64,000 bases of DNA from Corythucha ciliata (lineage: Eukaryota; Arthropoda; Insecta; Hemiptera; Tingidae). The stretch covers positions 21,243,009-21,307,008 of the forward strand of contig CM075938.1 in the NCBI GenBank assembly GCA_038030265.1, read 5' to 3'. This document shows, in pieces, positions 21,790 to 58,199 of the stretch (positions are counted from its first letter, which is position 1; each line of letters begins with the position of its first letter). A model generated the notes under the pieces. That model made no database searches. It had not been told where the DNA came from and saw only the letters and a program-made list of their open reading frames with translations. The translations under genes were made by a program, and so were the position numbers.

Positions 21790-22562
21790 CCCTGTTCTTT
21801 CATTTTCACCTCACATTTGCCTCCAGAAACCTCGAATTAGAGATGTTTGTCAATTTTAGCAGTGAATTAGCGCATTTCGATAATTCTATCTGCGAATTTT
21901 ACTCAGCGAACGGTGAATTAGTTATATTGTATCATCCCAGACCATGAATTAGCGCTGTTTTTAGGCAGTAGCCTACAGAGGTAGGAATGAGGGGGAAGGA
22001 CTACAACAGGTCATCATTCAGAAGGAGCCCCCGAGAAGCTTAAAGATAGTAAAAAGGGGATACTTAGCGATATTTTAATGGGAAAAAGAGCTAATATGTG
22101 TAATGGACAAAAACCGCAATTGAAGACTGTAATTAAGAAAAATTTCGCTCCGGCAGCTGGCGGTCGGAAAGAGTGCATTTCATTCCGTATACGGATACCC
22201 TAAGCCGTCCCAGAAGTAATAATTTTGATACCATAATTTGTTTCATTAAGCCGAACTTCTTCCTCTATTTTCACCCCCTCTCTTCAAAAATGTCGAAAAG
22301 TGTCGGTAGTTTTTCAAGGGCTTTGTTATATTAAATTTTTGTGCCGTATTTTATAATACCTATACGTGCGAATTTAAGCGATTTTTTTGAAATTTCATCC
22401 CCTGTTTCACTCCCCCCCCCATCAAAGTTTTCGATAAATCTCAATGGAACCCAGGGCTTAGGTTGCATTAAATTATTGAGTCGAATTTTAGAGCGCTAAG
22501 ATGAACTAGTGAAGTTCAACGCTATTTTTACACTTCCACACCGGAAGGACCACCCCCACCAC

Positions 22563-23108
22563 TTTGACTTTTTCGAAAAATTAAAATGGGAATCAAAGGC
22601 TACTCTAACATGGAGTATTCGTACTGAATGTGATGCATCTAGATTCAACTGGTGAATTGTAGTGATTTTTTGACCATTTCACCCCCTATTCCCCCCCCCT
22701 CCACTTCGACCGTTTTGGGCCAAATGCAATACCGACCGGGGTCTTACGACTACTGATTTTTGTGCCAAAGCGCGTTCCGCTAAATTGATTTCTTCGAGAG
22801 TTATCGTGCTAACAAGACCACACACTTACTTCCAATCCGGTGGCAACACCCCCTTCCCTTCGACTTTTTCAAAAAATTAAAATGGGAATCAAAGCCTACT
22901 CTAACATGGAGTACACGTACCGAATATGATGCTTCTAGAATCAACTGGTGATTTTTTTTTGACCATTTCAACCCCTATTTCCCCCCCCCCTCCACCACGA
23001 CCGATTTGGCCCAAATGCAATACCGACCGGGGTCTTACGACTACTGATTTTTGTGCCAAAGCGCGTTCCGCTAAATTGATTTCTTCGAGAGTTATCGTGC
23101 TAACAAGA
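22563..23108 (+). repeat. Two tandem copies of a roughly 295 bp unit
   Basis: Unit 1 (22563-22817) and unit 2 (22859-23108) both start GACTTTTTCRAAAAATTAAA and end GTTATCGTGCTAACAAGA. The last 110 bp or so, from AATACCGACCGGGGTC onward, look identical, while the first half differs at many positions. Weaker related sequence may precede it at 22200-22500. Confidence 0.85.
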
Positions 23109-23109
23109 A

Positions 23110-24300
23110 AACGGCCATGATATAATATTATATAATATATATATTCTGGAGATCACTGAATTCGTGTTCTAGAGGTTCTGAAACGTGAAAAAAACATGAC
23201 ATGACCCATGTTTGCCACCATCACGACGAGACCAATAGTGCATTTTCAGAATGAAATGCACTAAAAGTGCTAGTTCGGGGCTGAATTTGAGGAAATGAAA
23301 AAAAGCGCTAATGCACAGGTAAAATTAGTGCTTGCCCTCTGAAACCTTCAATTACATCGCTTTTTGTCTTAGAGATAAAAATGAACGGAGAAAGCAAAGT
23401 CGTATAGATACCAAGTCATTTCTCTTCTGATAACGCGTGGTCACTAAAGCTAGAGGGAAAATTGCTCCCGCCAGAGTGCCACATGACATTTGGTCCCAAA
23501 ATTTGGCGGTTCGGAAAACGCTTATGAACAATGGCTTATTTAATAGCGATTTCCATTCAACACAGTCTCAAGTGTAGTGCAGCGTCCTCTCTATAAACAT
23601 ATGTTTCAATTCAGAGAGGACGGGTGGAAAACTCACACCACACTATGAATATCGGCGTGAGAACTATGAATATCGGGTCAATCACGACATAATAGTAATG
23701 AATAGTGGATGAATGGTTCTAGCAGACTGAAACTGAAGCAGATTTCCGTCCGCTGAAACAAGTTAATTGTATCTATTGAAACTGTGTTTTTTCACGATGT
23801 TTTGTCAAGTGCAGCGAGATCCTGGGCATTCTCAAGCGTCAGGTGAGCATGGTGTTTCTTCCATCTCCTCTGCAGACCGAACGTTGAGGGCATGATTCAC
23901 GCAGATAGTACCTCGCCCCCTCCAAACAGCCTCCGTCAAGCACATGGCAAGTTTTTTCACGCCTTCTTTGTGCTGCACGGATTTCAAATACTCATTCCTA
24001 TCTACAGAAAATTTTACATAAAATGCAGTAGTATACATTTTCCAAATTTTGTCCCCAAAATAACTTCAAAACCGCCTTGAATTTTTATCTTGAAAATTTA
24101 CGCTCTACCTTCGACTCACTAATAGCGGACATCTATCTACAGTTCCTCTGGCTGTGCTGGGTTTTACACCGGGGCACGAAACAAGACGGAACTTGAAGTT
24201 GAAATTAATTGTTTTTTAAACAAAATAGATAGAAAAGAATAGAAATAATTGAAATTTTGTTGACCAACCAAACACAAAATAAGCAACAATCGCACACACC
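23110..24300. other. Intergenic, left flank of the Penelope-like fragment
   Basis: It contains a 50 bp-family remnant at 23250-23360 and the truncated inverted repeat at 23584-23635. The DNA becomes A-rich from about 24180 toward the retroelement fragment, but its 5' limit is not marked by a target duplication I can see. Confidence 0.5.
23584..23635. repeat. Truncated copy of the 54322 inverted-repeat family
   Basis: GTCCTCTCT and AGAGAGGAC form a stem around an AT-rich loop, followed by GGGTGGAAA. The element at 54322-54478 has the same centre (CTTCTCTG, AT loop, CAGAGAAG, ACGGGTGGAAA). Confidence 0.5.
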
Positions 24301-24303
24301 GGT

Positions 24304-24753
24304 CTTTTAACCAATAAATTACAAAAAATCTTCAAACAATTCACCATTGAAAATTTCTAACAAACCTTACAACACTAACAAAATGTTTTTTCTAAACTAA
24401 AGGACAAAACAAATACACTCCAAAAATCGGGAGTTGTGTATAAAGTAGACTGTATAAATTGTAATCAAGCATATATTGGTGAAACAAAACAATACTTAAA
24501 AGAAAGACTAAAACAACATGACCGCAGCTTAACAGATAATACACCTCTCACAGCACTGTCTCAACACGCCAAAGAACTTTCACATAAACTAGATCTAAGC
24601 AACCCAAACATTTTACACCAAGAAATCAACACACACAACAGAAAATTTCTAGAAATGGTAGAAATTAGAAAACACAACACGGTGAACTACAAAAGAGACT
24701 TAGACAACTTATCCAAGATTTACACACCTATCATCACCTCAGACACAACGTAA
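24304..24753 (+). pseudogene. Penelope-like retroelement fragment, GIY-YIG endonuclease domain
   Basis: The frame from 24379 to the stop at 24751 encodes Q-N-V-F-S-K-L-K-D-K-T, then K-S-G-V-V-Y-K-V-D-C-I-N-C and A-Y-I-G-E-T-K-Q-Y-L-K-E-R-L-K-Q-H. This is the VVYKVxCxxC...YIGET pattern of the GIY-YIG nuclease at the C-terminus of Penelope-like elements. In the same frame upstream, L-T-N-K-L-Q-K-I-F-K resembles the linker after the reverse transcriptase, but it is cut by two in-frame TAA stops at 24358 and 24376. The reverse transcriptase core is absent, so this is a 5'-truncated, dead copy, as is usual for retroelements. It ends just left of the inverted-repeat composite at 24996. The GIY-YIG assignment is firm; assignment to the Penelope group rests on the linker and the cysteine spacing. 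Confidence 0.85.
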
Positions 24754-24826
24754 AACACCTTCAAAATAGTAAAAATATAAAACCACATGTCAATAGAAAC
24801 AAAAGCTAAAAAAAGAAGACGCCAAG

Positions 24827-24862
24827 AGACGTAGATGATTCCTCGACGAAACGTCACGTCAC
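24827..24862 (+). ncRNA. Possible degenerate hammerhead ribozyme motif, 3' of the Penelope-like fragment
   Basis: Hammerhead ribozymes are known in Penelope-like element terminal regions. Here, 75 bp after the stop, a GATGA box (24833-24837) is followed by CGAC-GAAA-CG (24844-24853) and a short stem ACG-TCA-CGT ending in C, as expected for core helix III. The expected CTGATGA reads TAGATGA, and helix II pairs poorly. If it is a ribozyme, it is mutated. GACGT (24828-24832) and ACGTC (24856-24860) could also pair. Confidence 0.3.
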
Positions 24863-25213
24863 TGAAAACAAAAACGCCGGCAGGATCGGTCGAAAAAAAA
24901 TTGAAAACAAGAAAACAAATCACTCCTGCCTCCAAAATAAAAAAATATTCTATAAGTGAAAATGTCCAAAATCCAGCTGTAATTTGATCTGAGCTGTGAT
25001 TTGCCCATTACGATAACATAATAACTCCAGTAAGTTGAATTTTTCATAACCTGGTACTTTATAGCTTCAGTTTTTGAAACTGTACAGTACAGGTTTAAAA
25101 CTGACATGAAAAGTTTTTTACATGTCAGTTTTCTATAACCTTGTGCAACCTTTAAGGGCGCCGCGCGCCGACTCCGGGAAGGACCGCCCATTCCCTACCA
25201 CTGGAAGACCCGT

Positions 25214-25242
25214 GGGAGGTGCCTCCCATCGGGCTATATAAA
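25214..25242 (+). promoter_or_regulatory. TATA-box core promoter candidate of the GC-rich insertion
   Basis: TATATAAA lies at 25235-25242 in an otherwise GC-rich setting. It is preceded by a perfect palindromic stem GGGAGG-TG-CCTCCC at 25214-25227. A start site about 25-30 bp downstream would fall near 25265-25272 and transcribe the array as plus-strand RNA. This rests on sequence match only. Confidence 0.45.
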
Positions 25243-25953
25243 CAGCGCGGTGACCCAAAAATGGTATTCGGACGGCCGCAGCCAGAGAAGGAAGACCCCT
25301 GGACCAGCCTAGTCACCCAGGACCAACCCGGACGAGGACCAGCCGACACCGCGGGAAGCGAAAAGGACGCAAACTGGAGCAGCAGTGGAACTCCAAGAAG
25401 GGACAATCGGACCTAGGACCACCCCAGAGGATCTACGGACAGCGCCAAGGGCGCTAACTGCCAACCAGGAGGACTCCCAGCGAACCCGTCGCCCCCTCGG
25501 TAGTTCTCCCCATCGTGGTTGACGAACACCGAGGACCGGCCGAGCAAGAGGGAAGCGAAAAGGACGCTAACCGGACCCAGGATCATCCCAGAGGATCTAC
25601 GGACAGCGCGAGGGGCGCTAACTTCCACCCGGAAGGACTCCCAGCAAAACCCTTCGTACCCCCTCGGTAGTTCTCCCCGTTGTGGTTGACGAACACCGAG
25701 GAGTTCCCAGCCAAACCCCCTCTACCCCCGGCTGCTTCTCCCAGTCATTGGTCGACGAACGCCGGTCCTCCTCCCTGTGGTGGCGGGTCTTCTCCCAGTT
25801 ATTGGTCGACGAAGGCTCCACCTTCCTACCCCATACCTCCCAGGGTGAATCCTTACCAGAGGGCCTATAGGGCTTAGCGCCTTAATTGGCTGCCCTTGAA
25901 CTCCTGGTGAGCGACAGAACCACATCCCTGTCCTCACCCTTACAGCTGGAGCG

Positions 25954-26590
25954 AGCGCAGGAGCGCTAACCGAACTTCACCCCGGAGGACCCGCAGATAG
26001 CGTCGAGGGACGCTCATAGACGACCCCGAGGACCTGGAGCAAGCGCAAGGGCGCTAACCGACCGGCTACCCAGGAGGACTGGAGCAAGCGCAGGGCGCTA
26101 ACCGAACTTCAGCCCGGAGGACCCGAAGATAGCGTCGTGGGACGCTCATAGACGACCCCGAGGACCTGGAGCAAGCGCAAGGGCGCTAACCGACCGAATA
26201 CCCAAGGATCTAGGGCAAGCGTAAGGGACGCTAATCGAACTTCGGCCCAGAGGACCTGTGGCGAGCGCAAGGGCGCTAATCGACCACCAACCTCCCGGAT
26301 CTAGGGCAAGCGCAAGGGCGCTAATCGAACTTCGGCCCAGAGGATCTGTGTCGAGCGCAAGGGCGCTAATCGGCCACCAACCTCCGGATCTAGGGCAAGC
26401 GCAAAGGCGCTAACCGAACTTCGGCCCCGAGGGCCTGTGGCGAGCGCAAGGGCGCTATCCGACTACCAACCCCTAGGATCTGGGGCAAGCGCAAGGGCGC
26501 TATCTACCGTTTCGACCCAGAGGACCCGCAGGCAGCGTCGAGGGACGCTCACTGACGACCCAGAGGGCCTGTGGCAAGCGCCAGGGCGCT
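25954..26590 (+). repeat. Fifteen-unit 44-45 bp tandem array, one hairpin per unit
   Basis: Hairpins begin at 25954, 25999, 26042, 26087, 26131, 26174, 26218, 26264, 26309, 26354, 26398, 26443, 26488, 26534 and 26577, a spacing of 43-46 bp. Most read AGCGC-AAGG-GCGCT. Variants are AGCGTC-GAGG-GACGCT (25999, 26534), AGCGTC-GTGG-GACGCT (26131) and AGCGT-AAGGG-ACGCT (26218), which keep full pairing. The hairpin is usually followed by AAYCGA. Spacers fall into types: ACTTCGGCCCAGAGGACC, CCACCAACCTCCCGGATC and GACGACCCCGAGGACC. More diverged hairpins of the same kind lie upstream at 25441-25455, 25554-25568 and 25605-25619. Confidence 0.9.
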
Positions 26591-26949
26591 AACCCACTAT
26601 CGACAGAGGCACGCCTACCGCAGAAGGAGCTCGCGTCCAGAAGTACGACCGACCTCCCGTTGAAATGTTATCACCTCATCCGTGATTATAGAAATATCTT
26701 AGGACATGTTTTTTTGCCAAAAGAATAAAACTGGGTAATATTCGACGATGGTTGCGCGAAAAATAACGTACATCACTCGACTATTAAGTGGTACTACCCG
26801 CTCGTTTTTAATTAGGAGCCCCGGCAAGCCTCGTCAAAACTCGCACGTAATGCACCACTTACTAATCTTGTGATGTAATTTACTATTGCTTCACATGTAG
26901 TTTGTGAAGCAAATACTTTATATTTAAAAAAAAAAGTTGAGACCAAATG

Positions 26950-27200
26950 GGGGTGATTCTGTAACTTGCAAAATTTACGTGTCGTAAATTGGAAGAAGGG
27001 CGAGGAGAGGTACCTCGTTACCATGGTTTTTACGATACCTAGTGAATTAAACTGTGGAATTTTCACGCTAGATTGTGTGGTCTCGAAAAAAAATAATAAA
27101 TTCTTGACAAATGCGAGGAAAAACCAAGGCAACGGGATACATCCTCACCCCCTCCTTCCCTGTTACGACACGTAAATTTTGCGAGTTACAGAATCACCCC
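26950..27200. mobile_element. 251 bp MITE with long terminal inverted repeats
   Basis: The ends GGGGTGATTCTGTAACTTGC and GCGAGTTACAGAATCACCCC are inverted copies, and pairing extends through ACACGTAA/TTACGTGT, with weaker similarity for about 80 bp. CCAAATG occurs directly on both sides (26943-26949, 27201-27207), a 7 bp target duplication, or 8 bp with one mismatch as in hAT elements. There is no coding capacity. Confidence 0.8.
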
Positions 27201-27403
27201 CCAAATGTTGGAAGAGCGCTGTAGCGGGATCAAAATTTCATAAATGACCACCGTTACCATAGCGATCGTGATAAGTGGAAAAACTTGGGTTCTATACAAC
27301 TTTGGGAGAAAGCTTGTGCTTGAATTTTCTTGGCCATAGTTATTATGGTGGGAGGTGCTCCGTGTGAACCACAGAGTAACCTCAAGTGAAGTTGTTTTTT
27401 TTT

Positions 27404-28414
27404 ACATATCCACTTTGAATTTCTAGTTTTCTTCATTTTCCTTGAAAAGTATGACCAGAAATGCTCACTAGTGAGTTTTTAGATTGTTTCACAGGACGTT
27501 AATGAAGTGAATAACCCACAACTACTCGGGAGAATCTTTATTCTAAACGGGATGCGCGAGTAGTGAGTTTTTGGACTCTTTTTCCGGATATTTCAACACG
27601 CGCAAGTACCTAGCTCCAGTCCTCTTCCTGAAATCACGACAGAAGTCTCCGGATAGTCCGTCACTCATTTTTTTATGGGATACGTCACGTTTCTGAGTTC
27701 AAGATAACTTGGTATTTACTGATGTGTTGTGTATTTTTGGGTATGTTTCTTCAGGGGTCGATCCTCTGCTAGTTAAGAGAAAAACAGGGCCTAAGAAATC
27801 ATGAACGTTTATTTCACATAATAGCCGCTAGCAAGCAAGAAACGAACTAATTCAGAAACGTTATTAGTACCGAAACTACAAATGAGAAGAACCGTGGTTC
27901 TAGCACAGCGAGAACTGCATGAGTGGTGCGACTTTTGTTCAAATCCTTGTTTCGCAGTCCTCAAAGGACGGAGCGGCTCTTTCTGAAGTCGTGACTGTCC
28001 CGCCCATGTAATATTTTTCCTAGTATGTTGATGGAACGTGATCAGAGCCACTTATTTTAGAAAATAAACACCAAAATACACTTGGAAACACGGCTACGTG
28101 CCACGAACGATGACGTTTACAATGAAATCGTATGATCATCGTGACGTCCACGCCTTGAGAACGAGAGTGTTGACCAGTTTGATTTCGTTTTCACCGAACA
28201 AATTCCCCGAAATACCTCTTCTTCATTCTAACTCGGGCTCTTTTTTTGTAATTTTTCATTAATCTCAGGAGGGAGGTGAACATTTTTATTGATAACCTGA
28301 CGATCTAGAGGTAAATGCAAGGTTCTGATGGGATACTTTGCCGGCCATATTTGTGGCAACCCTTCTACCCACCCCCTTGCACACTCAGGCTTTCTCTAGT
28401 TATTCACCTCTATG
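27404..28414. repeat. Dispersed 1 kb repeat, copy 2
   Basis: It aligns from end to end with 1807-2803 in the same orientation. Shared blocks include GTGAATAACCCACAACT, CATGCAGTTCTCGCTGTG on the reverse strand, and GATAACCTGACG. It contains a minus-strand frame of 80 codons matching a 76-codon frame in copy 1; a 12 bp indel keeps the frame. Differences are mostly amino-acid-changing, so no protein constraint is evident. Class unknown. Confidence 0.85.
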
Positions 28415-28717
28415 CCTTTTGTCAATATTAACCAGCAATATGCCTTCAAAGACCTCAAACAAAACGATTTTTGTCAAATGAGGAAGTTTCAAAGGTCGAG
28501 GCTTTGGGGAATAGTAGATTATATTACAAGATTAGTAAGTGGTGCATTACCTGCGAGTTTGGCGGACGAGGCTTGCCGATTCTTTTGACAAAAAAAAAAA
28601 ACATGTTTTAAGATATTTCTAAAATCACGATTGAGGTGATAACATTACAACAAAGGTTGCACAAGGTTACCGAAAACTGACACGTAAAAATATTTTCATG
28701 TCAGTTTCAAACCTTTA

Positions 28718-28853
28718 GGGCCGTATTCAGAAACCAACCTTAACCTTTACGTCTCCTTTAAGCGCTTCAAAACAGATAACACATTTTTATAAACCAACAC
28801 ATTTTTCAACTCCTTTAGTTAAGGCCTCGTAAAGGTGTTTCTGAATTCGGCCC
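28718..28853. mobile_element. 136 bp PIF/Harbinger-type MITE in the right inverted arm
   Basis: The inverted ends GGGCCGTATTCAGAAAC and GTTTCTGAATTCGGCCC are flanked by TTA on both sides (28715-28717, 28854-28856). The left arm of the composite at 25083-25100 lacks the insertion and reads straight through as an empty site, with a single TA-containing target. A 3 bp TTA duplication is typical of the PIF/Harbinger superfamily. Confidence 0.85.
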
Positions 28854-29205
28854 TTACTGTACAGTTTTCAAAAACTGAAGCTACAAAGAGCCAGGTTAGG
28901 AAAAATTCAACTTACTCGAGTAATCATGTTATCGTAATGGGCAACTTACGAAGCAGGTAGCGCGAAAAATGTATTTTTTTTATGATTAAGTAGGCTAAAA
29001 TAGAGCTTATGTATACCGTTTTCCGTTCGTCAAAAACTCCATCCATTAATTTTTAATTGACGTTTGCAGTTACGGGCTGCTCCCCCGGCCCCCTCGCCTG
29101 TAAACTACGTCATCAATGCTGCTCCCCACTTCACCACCCTGAAGGCGGCTCGGTTGCAATTATTTCCATTACCTTCAGTTTATTTTATTGACCCGGGACA
29201 TATTA

Positions 29206-36089: not shown

Positions 36090-36540
36090 TCAATTTCTCG
36101 CCGGTGACGCTTGAATGTGATAGGGCGAGTACCGATGCGACATGGGTCGTGGCGAGGGTGAGCCCGATGAGGAGGACGGCGTGGAGACGGGAGGCGGCGT
36201 CACTTGGTGTGATCGGGGAAGGGGTGGTCCAAGGAGGCCGCCCGCCATTGACGTTGGTGGTGGCGGCGGTGGTGGCCAGTGGTGATGACCCGCGCCCGGC
36301 CCACCAGGCCACATGGGCATTCTTGATGGAATGAGAAGCGGGTGTCCCGAAGCTGCGGCAGCGGCGGCGGCAGCGGCCGCTGCTGCTGCCGCTCCGGCGC
36401 CCCACAGTGCGCGGGCTTTTTCGATCATCGCCGCCGACAGTAGTGGATTCGAGTTATTGTTCTCCGCGTCCAGTTCCGAGTAGAGGCGAAGCGGCGAGCG
36501 AAGGAAGTGATGCTCCATAAGCATCATGTCCATTGGGTCT
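36090..36540 (-). CDS. Tbx20/H15: T-box transcription factor (Tbx20/H15/midline), C-terminal exon with stop
   Basis: This last coding exon of 451 bp gives 149 residues after the split Arg codon, then a stop at 36092-36090. The acceptor is a T-rich tract ending CAG at 36543-36541. The order is: DPMDMMLMEHHFLRSPLRLY, which matches the segment just after the T-box in arthropod H15/mid; then an M-I-E-K-A-R motif, also typical of the arthropod proteins; a run of 14 Ala; a His3/Pro7 segment; and a Ser/Pro-rich tail ending S-P-A-R-N. The Ala run uses GCG, GCA, GCC and GCT codons, so it is not a recent triplet expansion. The tail is low complexity and poorly conserved across the family. The exon is clearly more GC-rich than the flanking DNA. 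Assignment of the first half is secure; the tail rests on the open frame. Confidence 0.93.
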
Positions 36541-38639
36541 CTGCAAAAAAAAAGAAGGATATTGTAAAAAAAAAAAAAGAGAGAGAGAGAGAGAGAGAAA
36601 GGAAGTAGCAAAGACAATAATTAAACTATCGAGAAAATTAACAAAAATTGCTCAATTTTTCGCCTCGTTCCCAAAAGGAATGACAAGACGATAAAAAAAA
36701 GGGGGAACGTGAGAAGGATGAAAGAAATATTATTTTTGAGTTTTTGTTTCTCCTCCGCCCATCACCTCACCCCTATCCTGTTGAAATCCTCCCCTACTCT
36801 TCTCACAGTCCACGGGAGATAATTGATTGCGGGTAATTGGGCCGAAGGTGTCGGTATCTTCGTTTGAAGTTGAGCCGCTCTGTAATGACAGAGTTGTTGG
36901 AGGGTTTTCAAAAGCCCCCGAAGCTCTTCTTCTATCTCTCTCATCGTATTATTTTAGAACCCCGCCCACTCAAGCTCCGAAGTTCACGGTACAGCGCCTT
37001 TCTTTTTAACCCGCGCGGTATATAAGTTCACTCCTCCCCCTTTTCGGAGGATAATTTCATTTAAAAGGTTACTTTCCTTCTTTTTTTGCAGTAAAAAAAT
37101 ACCGCATATCTTAATTACGTTAGCGCTGCCGAAAGTCGCGAGAAAATTTAAAGATTTGGCCCTCCCACCCACTCCGAACGTCAACAGCGAATTGAATTCA
37201 ACATTGCTGCAAAGGGCGCGGATGATTTAAGGGGGCAAGAACAACACACATGGAAAAGGGTTCAACGAGAAAAGGATGCAAAGTGTTGCTCTTAATCTCT
37301 TTAGTAACACATAATAAGTTGTGTATTGGGGAGAACCGTAGATTGTAATCCACTGGGATTGGTCGGGCGGCGGGTGAAAAGGGCATTGTAAAGGGACGGG
37401 TGGAGGGGGGTCGTATAGCCTACGGGGTATTTTTGGTGAAGGTTCGGAAGGGAAGAGAGAGGGCAGTGAGTGAGAGGAGAAACGAGGGTGTGAGTAAAGA
37501 GACTGACTTTCCTAGGATTAACCGCCCCAGAGAGAGAATCGCTAATTTGCTATCTGTCCCCTCTTCCCCACCTCCTGACATCACCAAGAACCACCCCAAC
37601 CAACCCCCACCACCTCAAACACCCTGTTGGTGTTGGTGCTTTGCTATAGGGCAGATTGTGGTTGGGTGAGGGGCGGTCCGTATCTGTAATCCTTCAATTT
37701 GGGTGTGTAAATGGGCGAGGGGGGTAAAACGCTTCCCTGTTCTCCCCACGATTTCGCTTCCACACCACCAACCCTCCCTTTGTTCCACTGCTAATCCTCG
37801 AAGCTAATAACATTCACCCCCCCCCCACCCTGCAGCGATCCGCACTTCATGGTCCTAAAAACCCTCCCTTGCAGCAACTCTCAGTCTATCGTTAATACTC
37901 ACTTCCATCAACCTCGAACCCTGAAGGAATGAAAGGATGAAATGGTGTAGAGAGTGTTGGAATAATGGTTAGTGGGGGGTTAAAAGGGTTTATTTTATAA
38001 CAAGTAAGAACCTTTCCGCCCATTTTATCTTCCTCTTTCCATTTAATTTCTTAGGAAACACTTCCATACAATACGTTTCACGAGTAACATCACGATGGGC
38101 GGGAGGATAAACTTTATTTTGCCGATGCTAAGGCCCGTCTCCAACTGAAAGGCGCCTGAGTATTGGCTCTGCCCATAGTCCCATCTCTTCTCTATACCAC
38201 GGCCCTTCAGAAGCTTCGGTAGCACCTGCCCTAACGCAACACCTCTGGTGTGATGTCCGCCACCTCAACTGAATCCTATCGGGAGCCAGCAACCGCCCCC
38301 CCCCCACCGCCGATTTTTTCCACTGGCAGCCTATTCCATTAATTTTATCTCATTGTCTAATACAAGGAATTCTGTACAGAGTACAACAGCTATTAATTGT
38401 TTCACGAATTGCGAATTAGCTTTCACTTCTGCTATCAAAAGAAATGTGAGGTGACAAGGCGAGGATGGTTGGGAAGGGTCAAAACTGTGCTCCGCTGAAT
38501 ACAATCTACTGTCTTCCTCGTCTTCTGCCACCGTTGAGAGCTGGAGTAGAATGTTTTCAGAAAATACTTCTTGCTTTCCTCCGGCAGCTTCATTCTTTCT
38601 ATCACCGATCAGTGTATTGTTAGTTATTACGTGCAAAGT

Positions 38640-54680: not shown

Positions 54681-57600
54681 TACAGAAACACTTGGAACTT
54701 GGTTTTGATGCTCATGAATTGGGAAAATGATGTTCTAAAAAGAGCCATCTCAAACTCTTGTACTATATCCGATTTTGCCAGTTCTGCTCTTTCAAAAACC
54801 AGCTTTGTGACTTCCGGGTCAGCAAAAAAGTAATTTCGGAGGGTGGTTGGCTCTCTTGAAGACCATAATTGATTTGGGAAGATTTTGATTTGGGATTTTG
54901 GGGAAGATTTGGCTCCTGCACTGTGGAATGACACTCTGGAAAGTGACAGGGGTGGGAGTAGGCTTTTTGTCTTTGACGTTAAGACGTTAATTGCGACGCC
55001 GGACTCGTCCCCGTATGAAGAAGCGAGTTTGTCTCCAATGAACAAAAAGTAAAAAAACTTCAAATGTAGTGCACGGAAAGACAATTTCCATCATCAAAGC
55101 TGCCATGCGTCCACATCACATCTCATAGGCCTTTTATCCCGCAATTTTTCCGTGACTGTGAAGGGCCAGGGTCCTTTTTTTTTTTGCACACTTTTAACGC
55201 GTTCCTTTAACCGTATTTAAACAAAGAAAAAAGATACTCGGGTGAGGGGGGGGGGGCTTTCTCTTTTTCCACGACATTGTGGGGCCCCTCTTTCATAATT
55301 CAAAGATATGACGATCGTTAGACCCCCCCCCCTTCCTTTTTTCAACAACGCTGGCCACCTTTAAAAACCAGTTTTTTTCGCTCTCTCTCACTCTCTCTCT
55401 CTCTCATTTTTCTTATCTCGCGTAATGAATGATCTGACACTGTAGTCGGAGGTTACTGAGAGGGGAGTATAACGCTTCAATTGCCCTTTTGCTTACAATA
55501 TAAAGTTTCACCGCGCGTGTTTTCAGTGTATGTGTGTGTGCGTGTAATGGTGGAGCAACGCCCAGGAAATTGTAGCACCTTGCATGGTAATTGTTAGTAA
55601 TGAAATGAATAATGTGCACGCATTTTTCTCTTAAAAAAAAAAATATTCCAACTTTCAACTGTCCTGCGGGTGTTGTTATTAAAATTTAGGGATGTCGAGA
55701 TGCAGAGCGGGGGGATTATGGTTAAATTTTTGATTTAGTATCACACGCAAGATGGGCTTTAGTGAAGGGGTTCGGGAAGAGGACACTAATAAAATTTCAA
55801 GTTTCACACTTCCAAGGACACGAGTCGAAATAAATTATATATTAAGTGGGTGTAATACACGCGGATAGTAATCCCATAAAATAAGACAAAATCCGGTTTC
55901 TTACCCCTCTCCCCTCCCCACAGCCATACAGGCGAGAATTTGTCACTAAGGCCACTTTTTAAGCTTCACATTTTATTACAACGAATTTCAGGCTATAAAA
56001 ATCCCACCTAGAGACCACCCATTCCTCCCCCCTCCCACGTTAATAACGAATTCATCGATTTTAATTTGAAAGTGACGAGTTTCTAGCAAGATTTTTTAAA
56101 AAGTTTTATTTTTGTGTAAGCCCCTGGTAGGTACTTTGCCCACTGCCGCCTGTTGACAGGTGGAATTCATAAAGTGGCCGAACTCACGCAACCTGACGCA
56201 AGTTGTAATTAAAAAAGTATATGTATATACCTATGTATATAAATACTCAAATAAAAAGCTAAAAAAGTTTTTCAACCCATTTTCATATTTTTGGGTGAGT
56301 GCGTGTTAACACTCGGCATCGACGTCTAATAAATCCCCGAGTCAACAAAAAAAAGTTGGGGGCATTTCTGGTGTTTACATAGCGCTTTAAGTGGAGATGG
56401 TAGAGCATTGAAGGGTGGAGGGTGGGTGGACTGGTGGTCCCATGAATCTTCATTTGGTAAAATAAATATTTAACTTTTTTTTTTTTTGTATAAAACTTCA
56501 GACTTTCTTCCACCTTGTAAATTTTATTACCAAGCGTGAAAATAGAGCCTTATTAACCGAATGATAAATTATACTCCTCCATCACACAAACCTCTCCACC
56601 CCCACCCTTACCATCAAGAACCCAATGAATAGCAAACCGGATTATTCATAATGCCCTCCACCCCAACCCGTGCCCACCCATACACCGTTCAACACGTCAC
56701 AATAACCACACCGGAGCTGAAGGTGAGAAAGGATTTCAAATAAAATTATGTTTTTCGGGTGGAAAGGATAAATAACCGCTTCATAATAGCCGAGGGGAAA
56801 GTCTCGGCTTCACCCCCCCCCCCTTCGGACAGACAACCCTATACTAACTCTCCACTGTGACTCGTTTTCGTTACAATGGACCTCCCGTGTAGGGGAGGGT
56901 CTCTTTCGTGACATTCGAAAGATTCCCGAAAACCTACGCACTTGAGGTATTATTTTTTTTGAAAAAAGAAAAAAAAAACGTCAAAAGAATTTAAGAATAT
57001 GAGTGGTCGAAGAGGGGAGGGAGGAGTTTTTTCAACATCAAAATATTTTTTTGTTGGCTTGTTTACGTGGACAGTCACGCGAACTGTTTGATGGCCCTGA
57101 TGCAGCTTTGTATATACGCGACATGCTGAGGAGTTTTTCATGGGGCGGGGGGGTAGTGAGAGGGGTGGGATCACGCGAAATCTAATAAAATAATCTCTAT
57201 GATCAACGCTATAACCTCCCCCCCCCCACTTCACAACTCGTACTCTCGCATAACAACATCGTTGAACGGTTGCGATCAAAAGTACAAAAACACAAAAAAA
57301 AGGGTTGAAAAATTTAAGAATGCGCGAGGACGATTTGCTGCCGTTTTGATCGCTTGGCCCCGTGTTCGCCCCCTTCTTACCCCTGTCCACCTTCATTTAA
57401 ACATGAATAATTCAGCAATGGGAAGCTCTACTTGTCAAGAGTTATGACATGACAAATCAACTTTGGACTGGAAGGGGGGGAGCGTTATTCAGTATTTATT
57501 TGTTCGGGGCGAAGAAGAAAAAAAAAAATGTTCAGAGGGACTGAGAAGTAGGGGTGCATGGATAAATAAATAAATTTTCGGGTTAAGATGAAAGACTTCA

Positions 57601-57764
57601 GCCCCCCCCCCCTCCTCAACACACTCGTTGTAGGTTTTTTTTTTTCTTCCTTCAAACACGCCACACGTCAACATAGAAAAGTGGGAAAAGGTTTCACAAT
57701 GGGACAGTGGTGGGGAGGACGAAAGACAAACAGTATCGATTTGTGTGCGATGTGTGTCTGTTAC

Positions 57765-58038
57765 CTGGCCGTTTTTATCCATTTCATTGTTCGTCAGTTT
57801 GACTTTTTCGAACGAGACGACTTGTTTACGGAGCTGTTCGCCCGTGAACGGGGAGTCGGGGTGAAGGTAGAGGCGACTCGGTGCTGGAGGATCGGCTTTG
57901 CCGGCGACGAGCCATGAACTTCGATGATAAGCGTAGCGGTAGCGTTTATTGTCAACGGGGACAATGTCCATGAGAACGGCGTAGCGTTGATCGGGTCGAA
58001 TGCCGCTGAACGAGACTCGGACTGTGGGGAACATTCGC
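57765..58038 (-). CDS. Tbx20/H15: T-box transcription factor (Tbx20/H15/midline), T-box exon
   Basis: This exon encodes 91 residues of the T-box DNA-binding domain, beginning [10 protein letters not shown] and ending N-N-E-M-D-K-N-G-Q. It includes the subfamily-typical stretches [27 protein letters not shown] and [11 protein letters not shown], which match Tbx20/H15/midline better than other T-box classes. Tbx20 proteins are nuclear transcription factors used in heart and neural patterning (family knowledge). The acceptor is a pyrimidine-rich tract ending CAG at 58041-58039. One base of a split codon (read as Arg) opens the exon. The donor is CAG|GTAA at 57764, in phase 0. The length of 274 bp is 1 base plus 91 codons, with no stop or frameshift. 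The first third of the T-box is not here and no matching exon is visible up to 64000, so the gene continues off the right edge. Confidence 0.97.
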
Positions 58039-58199
58039 CTGCGGGAAAAAAAAAGAAAAAACAAAACAATTATTTTAGAAGAGTGTAATAAAAGAAGATT
58101 TTGAAATCAGCGAGAATCAGAGAGAAGCGTAAAAAAAGAACGGCATTGCGAAGAGAACTCATTTAACGTCTCGTCCGATCAACAACTTTAGGAAAAACC

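Follow-up and report, generated by a model that had tools for sequence, protein, structure and literature searches.

A GC-rich block with two families of repeated hairpins, an apparent insertion in an AT-rich repeat of Corythucha ciliata

The locus and its AT-rich flanks

The window, the whole 64,000-nucleotide stretch of Corythucha ciliata DNA that was analyzed (GenBank assembly GCA_038030265.1, contig CM075938.1, positions 21,243,009 to 21,307,008 of the forward strand), carries a T-box exon at 57489-58106 on the minus strand (PF00907, E 4.6e-31), with 950 protein relatives and 61 to 94% identity among the 120 matches listed, many of them named insect TBX20. The open reading frame at 36090-36620 resembles, by eye, the C-terminal part of a TBX20-like protein. 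Pfam families were found in none of 10 other open reading frames of the window and in one of five in a separate set, the T-box. About 9.4 kb beyond the frame at 36090-36620 lies a GC-rich block, the 3' part of which is an array of tandem hairpins. The block, its flanks, and a second copy of the flanks are located as follows.

25154..26658, plus strand (by hairpin loops and TATA box): GC-rich, apparently non-coding inserted block, 1,505 bp
25001..25153, plus strand: left flank, AT-rich repeat, common to 28652-28717 and 28855-28944 on the minus strand (self-BLAST, 89% and 91%)
26659..26887, plus strand: right flank, AT-rich repeat, common to 28510-28651 on the minus strand (self-BLAST, 84% and 88%)
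28510..28944, minus strand: second copy of the flanks without the block, the empty site (window self-BLAST and alignment)

The two flank copies were identical at 259 of 292 aligned letters, with about 95 extra bases of the right flank (26727-26821) missing from the other copy in the alignment. Joined across the block, the flanks read ..GTGCAACCTTT|GTTGAAATG.. and the empty copy is the same except for one base, with unbroken identity over 18 bases to the left of the junction and 4 to the right. Compared with the empty site, the target-site duplication at the block junctions amounts to zero bases. In 50-bp windows the GC content steps from 0.30 to 0.72 at the left junction and from 0.66 to 0.34 at the right. 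Because the empty site is clean at both ends and both junctions coincide with a GC step, the block probably arose by insertion; this is preferred to a deletion in the other copy, since a deletion would need cuts at both composition steps. No terminal inverted repeats of a transposon were found at the block, with no inverted pair between its two sides, none above the cut-off, and the zero-base duplication. Similarly, no LTR-type TG..CA ends with a target-site duplication beyond 4 bp were present near the block, where five 4-bp duplication matches with TG..CA were counted, none of them at its junctions.

Other repeats were observed in the same region. The empty copy contains a 137-bp MITE-like insert (28718-28854) with the inverted ends GGGCCGAATTCAGAAACACC and GGTTTCTGAATACGGCCC, and the flanking repeat contains a perfect palindrome at 25097-25132 with 12-bp arms AAAACTGACATG..CATGTCAGTTTT, the folding window around which is the strongest local fold nearby (z -3.9 and -4.6). 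A foldback MITE-like repeat with 83-nt arms, 83% complementary, occupies 26949-27201. A 1-kb direct repeat, 85% identical, is found at 27405-28414, near the empty copy, and at 1807-2803, and a 291-bp tandem duplication with 90% matches at 22551-23108. Just upstream of the block, the plus-strand open frame at 24379-24753 contains a GIY-YIG domain (PF01541, E 6.5e-4, below the cut-off) and is probably a 5'-truncated Penelope-like element.

Hairpins and other content of the block

The features within and next to the block are listed below; F1 to F4 are the copies of a second hairpin family.

25235..25241, plus strand: TATATAA, possible core promoter, 81 bp from the 5' end of the block
near 25355, plus strand: upstream copy of the array hairpin, weak
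25441-25455 and 25605-25619, plus strand: upstream copies of the array hairpin, perfect
25554-25568, plus strand: upstream copy of the array hairpin, four pairs
25495..25534, plus strand: F1, stem CCTCGGT/ACCGAGG, core TTCTCCC..GACGAA
25662..25701, plus strand: F2, stem of F1, near-identical duplicate of F1
25728..25765, plus strand: F3, stem CCGGC/GCCGG
25779..25822, plus strand: F4, stem GGTGG/CCACC
25954..26590, plus strand: tandem array of 15 units, each with a perfect AGCG[C/T]..CGCT hairpin
26724..26729, plus strand: AATAAA, possible poly(A) signal, outside the block

All 15 perfect hairpins that the sequence-only reading had placed at 25954-26590 were found at the claimed positions, with starts at 25954, 25999, 26042, 26087, 26131, 26174, 26218, 26264, 26309, 26354, 26398, 26443, 26488, 26534, and 26577. 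The spacing is regular, as had been claimed, with a measured start-to-start distance of 43-46 bp in place of 44-45 bp. The six-pair stems at 25999, 26131, and 26534 are likewise present, as is the T-A fifth pair of the hairpin at 26218-26232, the loop of which has five bases. Loops that had been described as close to NRGG are so in 10 of 15 units (AAGG in seven, GAGG in two, and CAGG in one), and the other five read AGGA, AGG, GTGG, AAGGG, and AAAG. The Smaug-type loop motif is CNGG; by eye, at most a minority of the array loops could fit it. Watson-Crick pairing holds in 78 of the 78 stem pairs, with no G-U pair.

Counting hairpins of at least 5 bp gave 16 in the array, whereas 1,000 dinucleotide shuffles averaged 2.8 and never exceeded 9; the 16th is probably 26423-26435. 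As the units duplicate one another, the array does not amount to 15 independent hairpins, and the excess over the shuffles reflects a repeat unit that holds a hairpin, not 15 separate origins. Higher-order periods of 132 and 90 bp were detected in the repeats. The array stands at 25954-26590, an extent that is too small for the feature overall, as copies of its hairpin and the second family lie upstream inside 25154-26658. The upstream copies within 25441..25619 are older copies.

The second family consists of four copies with the common core TTCTCCC..GACGAA and with stems that differ yet remain paired. The native combination of F1-F4 stems paired best of the 24 permutations, and its mean was reached by none of 2,000 shuffles; F4 by itself was not significant (p 0.34).

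A coding role of the block was considered and rejected, the longest start-codon frame wholly inside it having 71 codons, or 84 if allowed to end two bases outside. The longest stop-to-stop frame wholly inside runs for 102 codons (25413-25721, minus strand) and the longest one touching the array for 95. Of 2,000 shuffles, 21 contained TATATAA on the plus strand and 180 contained the less strict TATAWAR on either strand. Since TATAWAR matches once on the plus and once on the minus strand of the block, the motif does not decide between the strands. No AATAAA is present inside the block, the first being that at 26724. The base composition of the block is A 0.241, C 0.334, G 0.293, and T 0.132, and an excess of A over T is not unique to it, the AT skew of 24001-25000 being 0.30.

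The TATA box and the predominance of A over T on one strand could belong to a fragment of a retroelement, from an LTR or leader, the hairpins of which once served genome packaging or translation. The Penelope-looking GIY-YIG endonuclease fragment just upstream, with its E value of 6.5e-4 below the curated cut-off, would agree with such an origin, against which stand the missing TG..CA ends with a duplication beyond 4 bp near the block, the missing long open reading frame, and the zero-base duplication at the empty site; we consider this origin very improbable.

In 27 windows the folding energy of the block was no better than that of shuffled sequence (mean z -0.40 on the plus and -0.02 on the minus strand), and the minus strand of the block folds to a lower energy than the plus strand. 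With z near 0 and the lower energy on the minus strand, the whole-RNA fold was rejected as structural evidence. Outer stems closing each unit were convincing by eye and were also rejected, as native energies averaged -9.94 kcal/mol against -9.49 kcal/mol with swapped flanks (P 0.16); the lower energy of native than of letter-shuffled flanks (0.01) is explained by the swapping result.

Conservation and covariation of the hairpins

Changes are plainly kept out of the hairpin arms. Among the 15 array units, non-consensus cells numbered 0 of 120 in the arms, 12 of 89 in the loops, and 169 of 647 in the spacers, and among all 19 units, comprising the 15 of the array and the four upstream copies, 1 of 152, 19 of 113, and 240 of 810, respectively. 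The Fisher test of arms against spacers in the 15 units (P 8e-15) overstates the conservation because the units are related and spacer letters may be partly misaligned. Loop length ranges from 3 to 5 bases while the stem stays, or up to 6 when every stem is counted with five pairs. If the arms drifted at the transition rate of the spacers and G-U were tolerated, about 10 G-U pairs would be expected among the 78, and none was seen, which points to the letters themselves being what matters or to a constraint acting on the DNA.

The perfect Watson-Crick palindromes, their invariant arms, and the absence of G-U pairs fit a DNA element with palindromic sites bound by a protein as duplex or cruciform DNA, as in the homologous regions (hr) of baculoviruses. 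The hr are likewise repeated palindromes; as described in PMC6669502, they function in replication, with IE-1 able to bind the cruciform as well as the extended form. The same source describes the hr palindromes as 30 bp long, imperfect, and AT-rich, whereas those of the array are perfect. Further, the spacing between the arms varies by the loop lengths given above, the loops are purine-rich on one strand only, and two exact patterns had no match in viral contigs, nor was any match found among phages. Loops of 3 to 5 bases on an unchanged stem suit a folded strand better than a rigid DNA dimer site, and the DNA element appears quite unlikely.

The claim that the folded form is maintained draws support from the arm conservation and the second hairpin family, and not from the compensatory changes originally cited for it, which proved thin. 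In the alignment of 19 units, three of pairs 1-4 of the array stem were constant in 19 of 19 and one was A-T in 18 of 19. By hand alignment, the fifth pair was C-G in 13 units, T-A in 4, and unpaired A/A in 2, so that pairing was kept in 17 of 19, which none of 20,000 shufflings of the partners reached. When related units were collapsed by hand to 10 clusters, 9 of 10 were paired, and 145 of 20,000 shuffles equalled this. The T-A pair traces to about two origins on a UPGMA tree of the unit flanks (the clade of units u2, u5, and u14, and unit u7), and both events also allow an alignment in which T and A are a paired insertion rather than substitutions. RNAalifold found a two-sided change in none of the five pairs of the array, and the count on the named structure gave one such pair, a count that 228 of 500 shuffles also reached. 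At 0.019, the covariation score of the array was equalled by 23 of 500 shuffles and exceeded by four of six slid control structures. The argument from compensatory change in the array alone is weak.

For the second family, two-sided change was found in 3 of 13 pairs (equalled by 19 of 500 shuffles) and the covariation score was 0.321 against 0.162 when shuffled (attained in 2 of 500 shuffles and in no slid version), statistics that rest on four sequences, two of them near-identical.

Known systems and the favored explanation

Searches for relatives covered viral contigs, phages, plasmids, prokaryote genomes, and proteins. The plasmid search returned only chance matches of 29 bp (E 0.4, in 20 records), and two translated frames of the block had no match among 5.8 billion proteins. 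In the window, no Rfam family reached its gathering score, the five matches in 25000-26800 being weak (best E 0.28), and tRNA and tmRNA scans found none. Covariance models of the two families match in the block by construction, and in the rest of the window each gave one chance-level match (E 0.78 and 7.5). Of the 19 units, 11 were recovered by model R1, and model R2 recovered three of the four second-family copies, all but F4; overlap of the 58-position model with neighboring units may explain most, not all, of the omissions, and weak copies elsewhere could escape.

Among prokaryote genomes, one hairpin-repeat match was obtained, in a metagenome-assembled genome of Rhodospirillales (L001). 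Three tandem copies of a repeat that contains the same hairpin, AGCGCAAGGGCGCT, lie there on the minus strand at 150-250, in a non-coding gap near what appear by eye to be nusG and secE. The spacers are unrelated and the sequence is bacterial, and the likeness of the hairpin is taken as convergence.

The layout had been thought to match no described element, which is too strong, as Xist repeat A has a similar one (PMC3734131). As described there, repeat A usually comprises 8 or 9 tandem monomers with a 46-bp consensus, each with a CG-rich hairpin carrying compensatory mutations. In both, a unit of about 45 bp recurs in tandem and contains a short GC-rich hairpin, mostly with a loop of four bases. 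Repeat A is mammalian and has T-rich linkers and an ATCG loop, whereas the block is in an insect and has 15 units, A/C-rich spacers, and mostly NRGG loops. The layout has a precedent, and the block may be considered a variant of a known layout, pending a genome-wide count of copies. A narrow literature search (titles and the starts of abstracts) on tandem-repeat hairpin lncRNAs of insects and Hemiptera found no such block described.

The closest rival explanation, a quite possible one, takes the block as repeats carried by a non-autonomous transposon, such as a Helentron-associated HINE or a foldback element, with the AT-rich flanks as its ends, the GC-rich repeats as a variable center present in one copy and absent from the other, and no RNA function. 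Template switching during replication would have made and mended the hairpins, and unequal exchange would have spread them. Satellite-like repeats can occupy the center of HINE elements (PMC7492417), and hemipterans are among the reported hosts of DINE-1-like elements (PMC4067079); such elements are, like the block, non-coding and may hold internal tandem repeats. The flanks form a two-copy repeat with palindromes, and no target-site duplication is visible at the block or its flanks, which is also as in Helentron-associated elements. Template switching, which can create and keep perfect stems (PMC8794818), fits the strict Watson-Crick pairing, and the periods of 132 and 90 bp agree with this origin as well. 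However, it keeps complementarity and need not keep the letters, and the arms are invariant across 15 units while the spacers vary. The HINE hallmarks are not clear in the flanks: for subterminal inverted repeats of 11-15 bp, the best match at the flank ends was 9 of 12 or 7 of 7 bp, and no palindrome with 6-bp arms was found near the right end of either copy at about 8-35 bp from the 3' end, with a 12-bp palindrome near the left end of the flanking repeat in one copy only. At the expected TT insertion, a T stands on both sides in both copies, but it may belong to the element. Finally, unlike Helentron-associated elements, the block is bounded on both sides by an abrupt change in GC content, which suggests foreign DNA rather than a derivative of the flanks.

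The reading that we tentatively favor, at somewhat less than even confidence, is that of an inserted non-coding element, the plus-strand RNA of which would present repeated hairpins to a protein. A GC-rich non-coding element of 1,505 bp would have inserted, with no target-site duplication, into one copy of the AT-rich repeat. The possible TATA-type promoter near one end of the block may direct plus-strand transcription to a predicted transcript of about 1.4 kb, rich in A, C, and G and poor in U, which would display 17 perfect and 2 weaker copies of one hairpin and four of the other. Together these hairpins may form a multivalent platform for a putative RNA-binding protein with specificity for both the stem sequence and the purine loop. 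This RNA reading is favored because the arms are kept at varying loop length with purine loops on one strand, and because a second structured family lies on the same strand with the TATA box ahead of all. The excess of A over T counts for it too, though the bias is not specific to the block. Against it stand the ordinary folding energy, the lower energy of the minus strand, the lack of native outer stems, of G-U pairs, and of AATAAA inside the block, the non-significance of F4 alone, and the lack of a relative in the collections searched. A stronger version, in which the block is an insect gene for a non-coding RNA, undescribed and either mobile or duplicated, with its own promoter and an independently evolved two-hairpin scaffold resembling Xist repeat A, is unlikely.

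Should the block prove to be transcribed, it would represent an independent RNA scaffold of tandem hairpins in an insect, situated on an apparent insertion, which would indicate a route by which such RNAs originate. If it is not transcribed, it would clearly exemplify the conservation of hairpin arms within a minisatellite carried by a transposon, in which selection could be tested against template switching.
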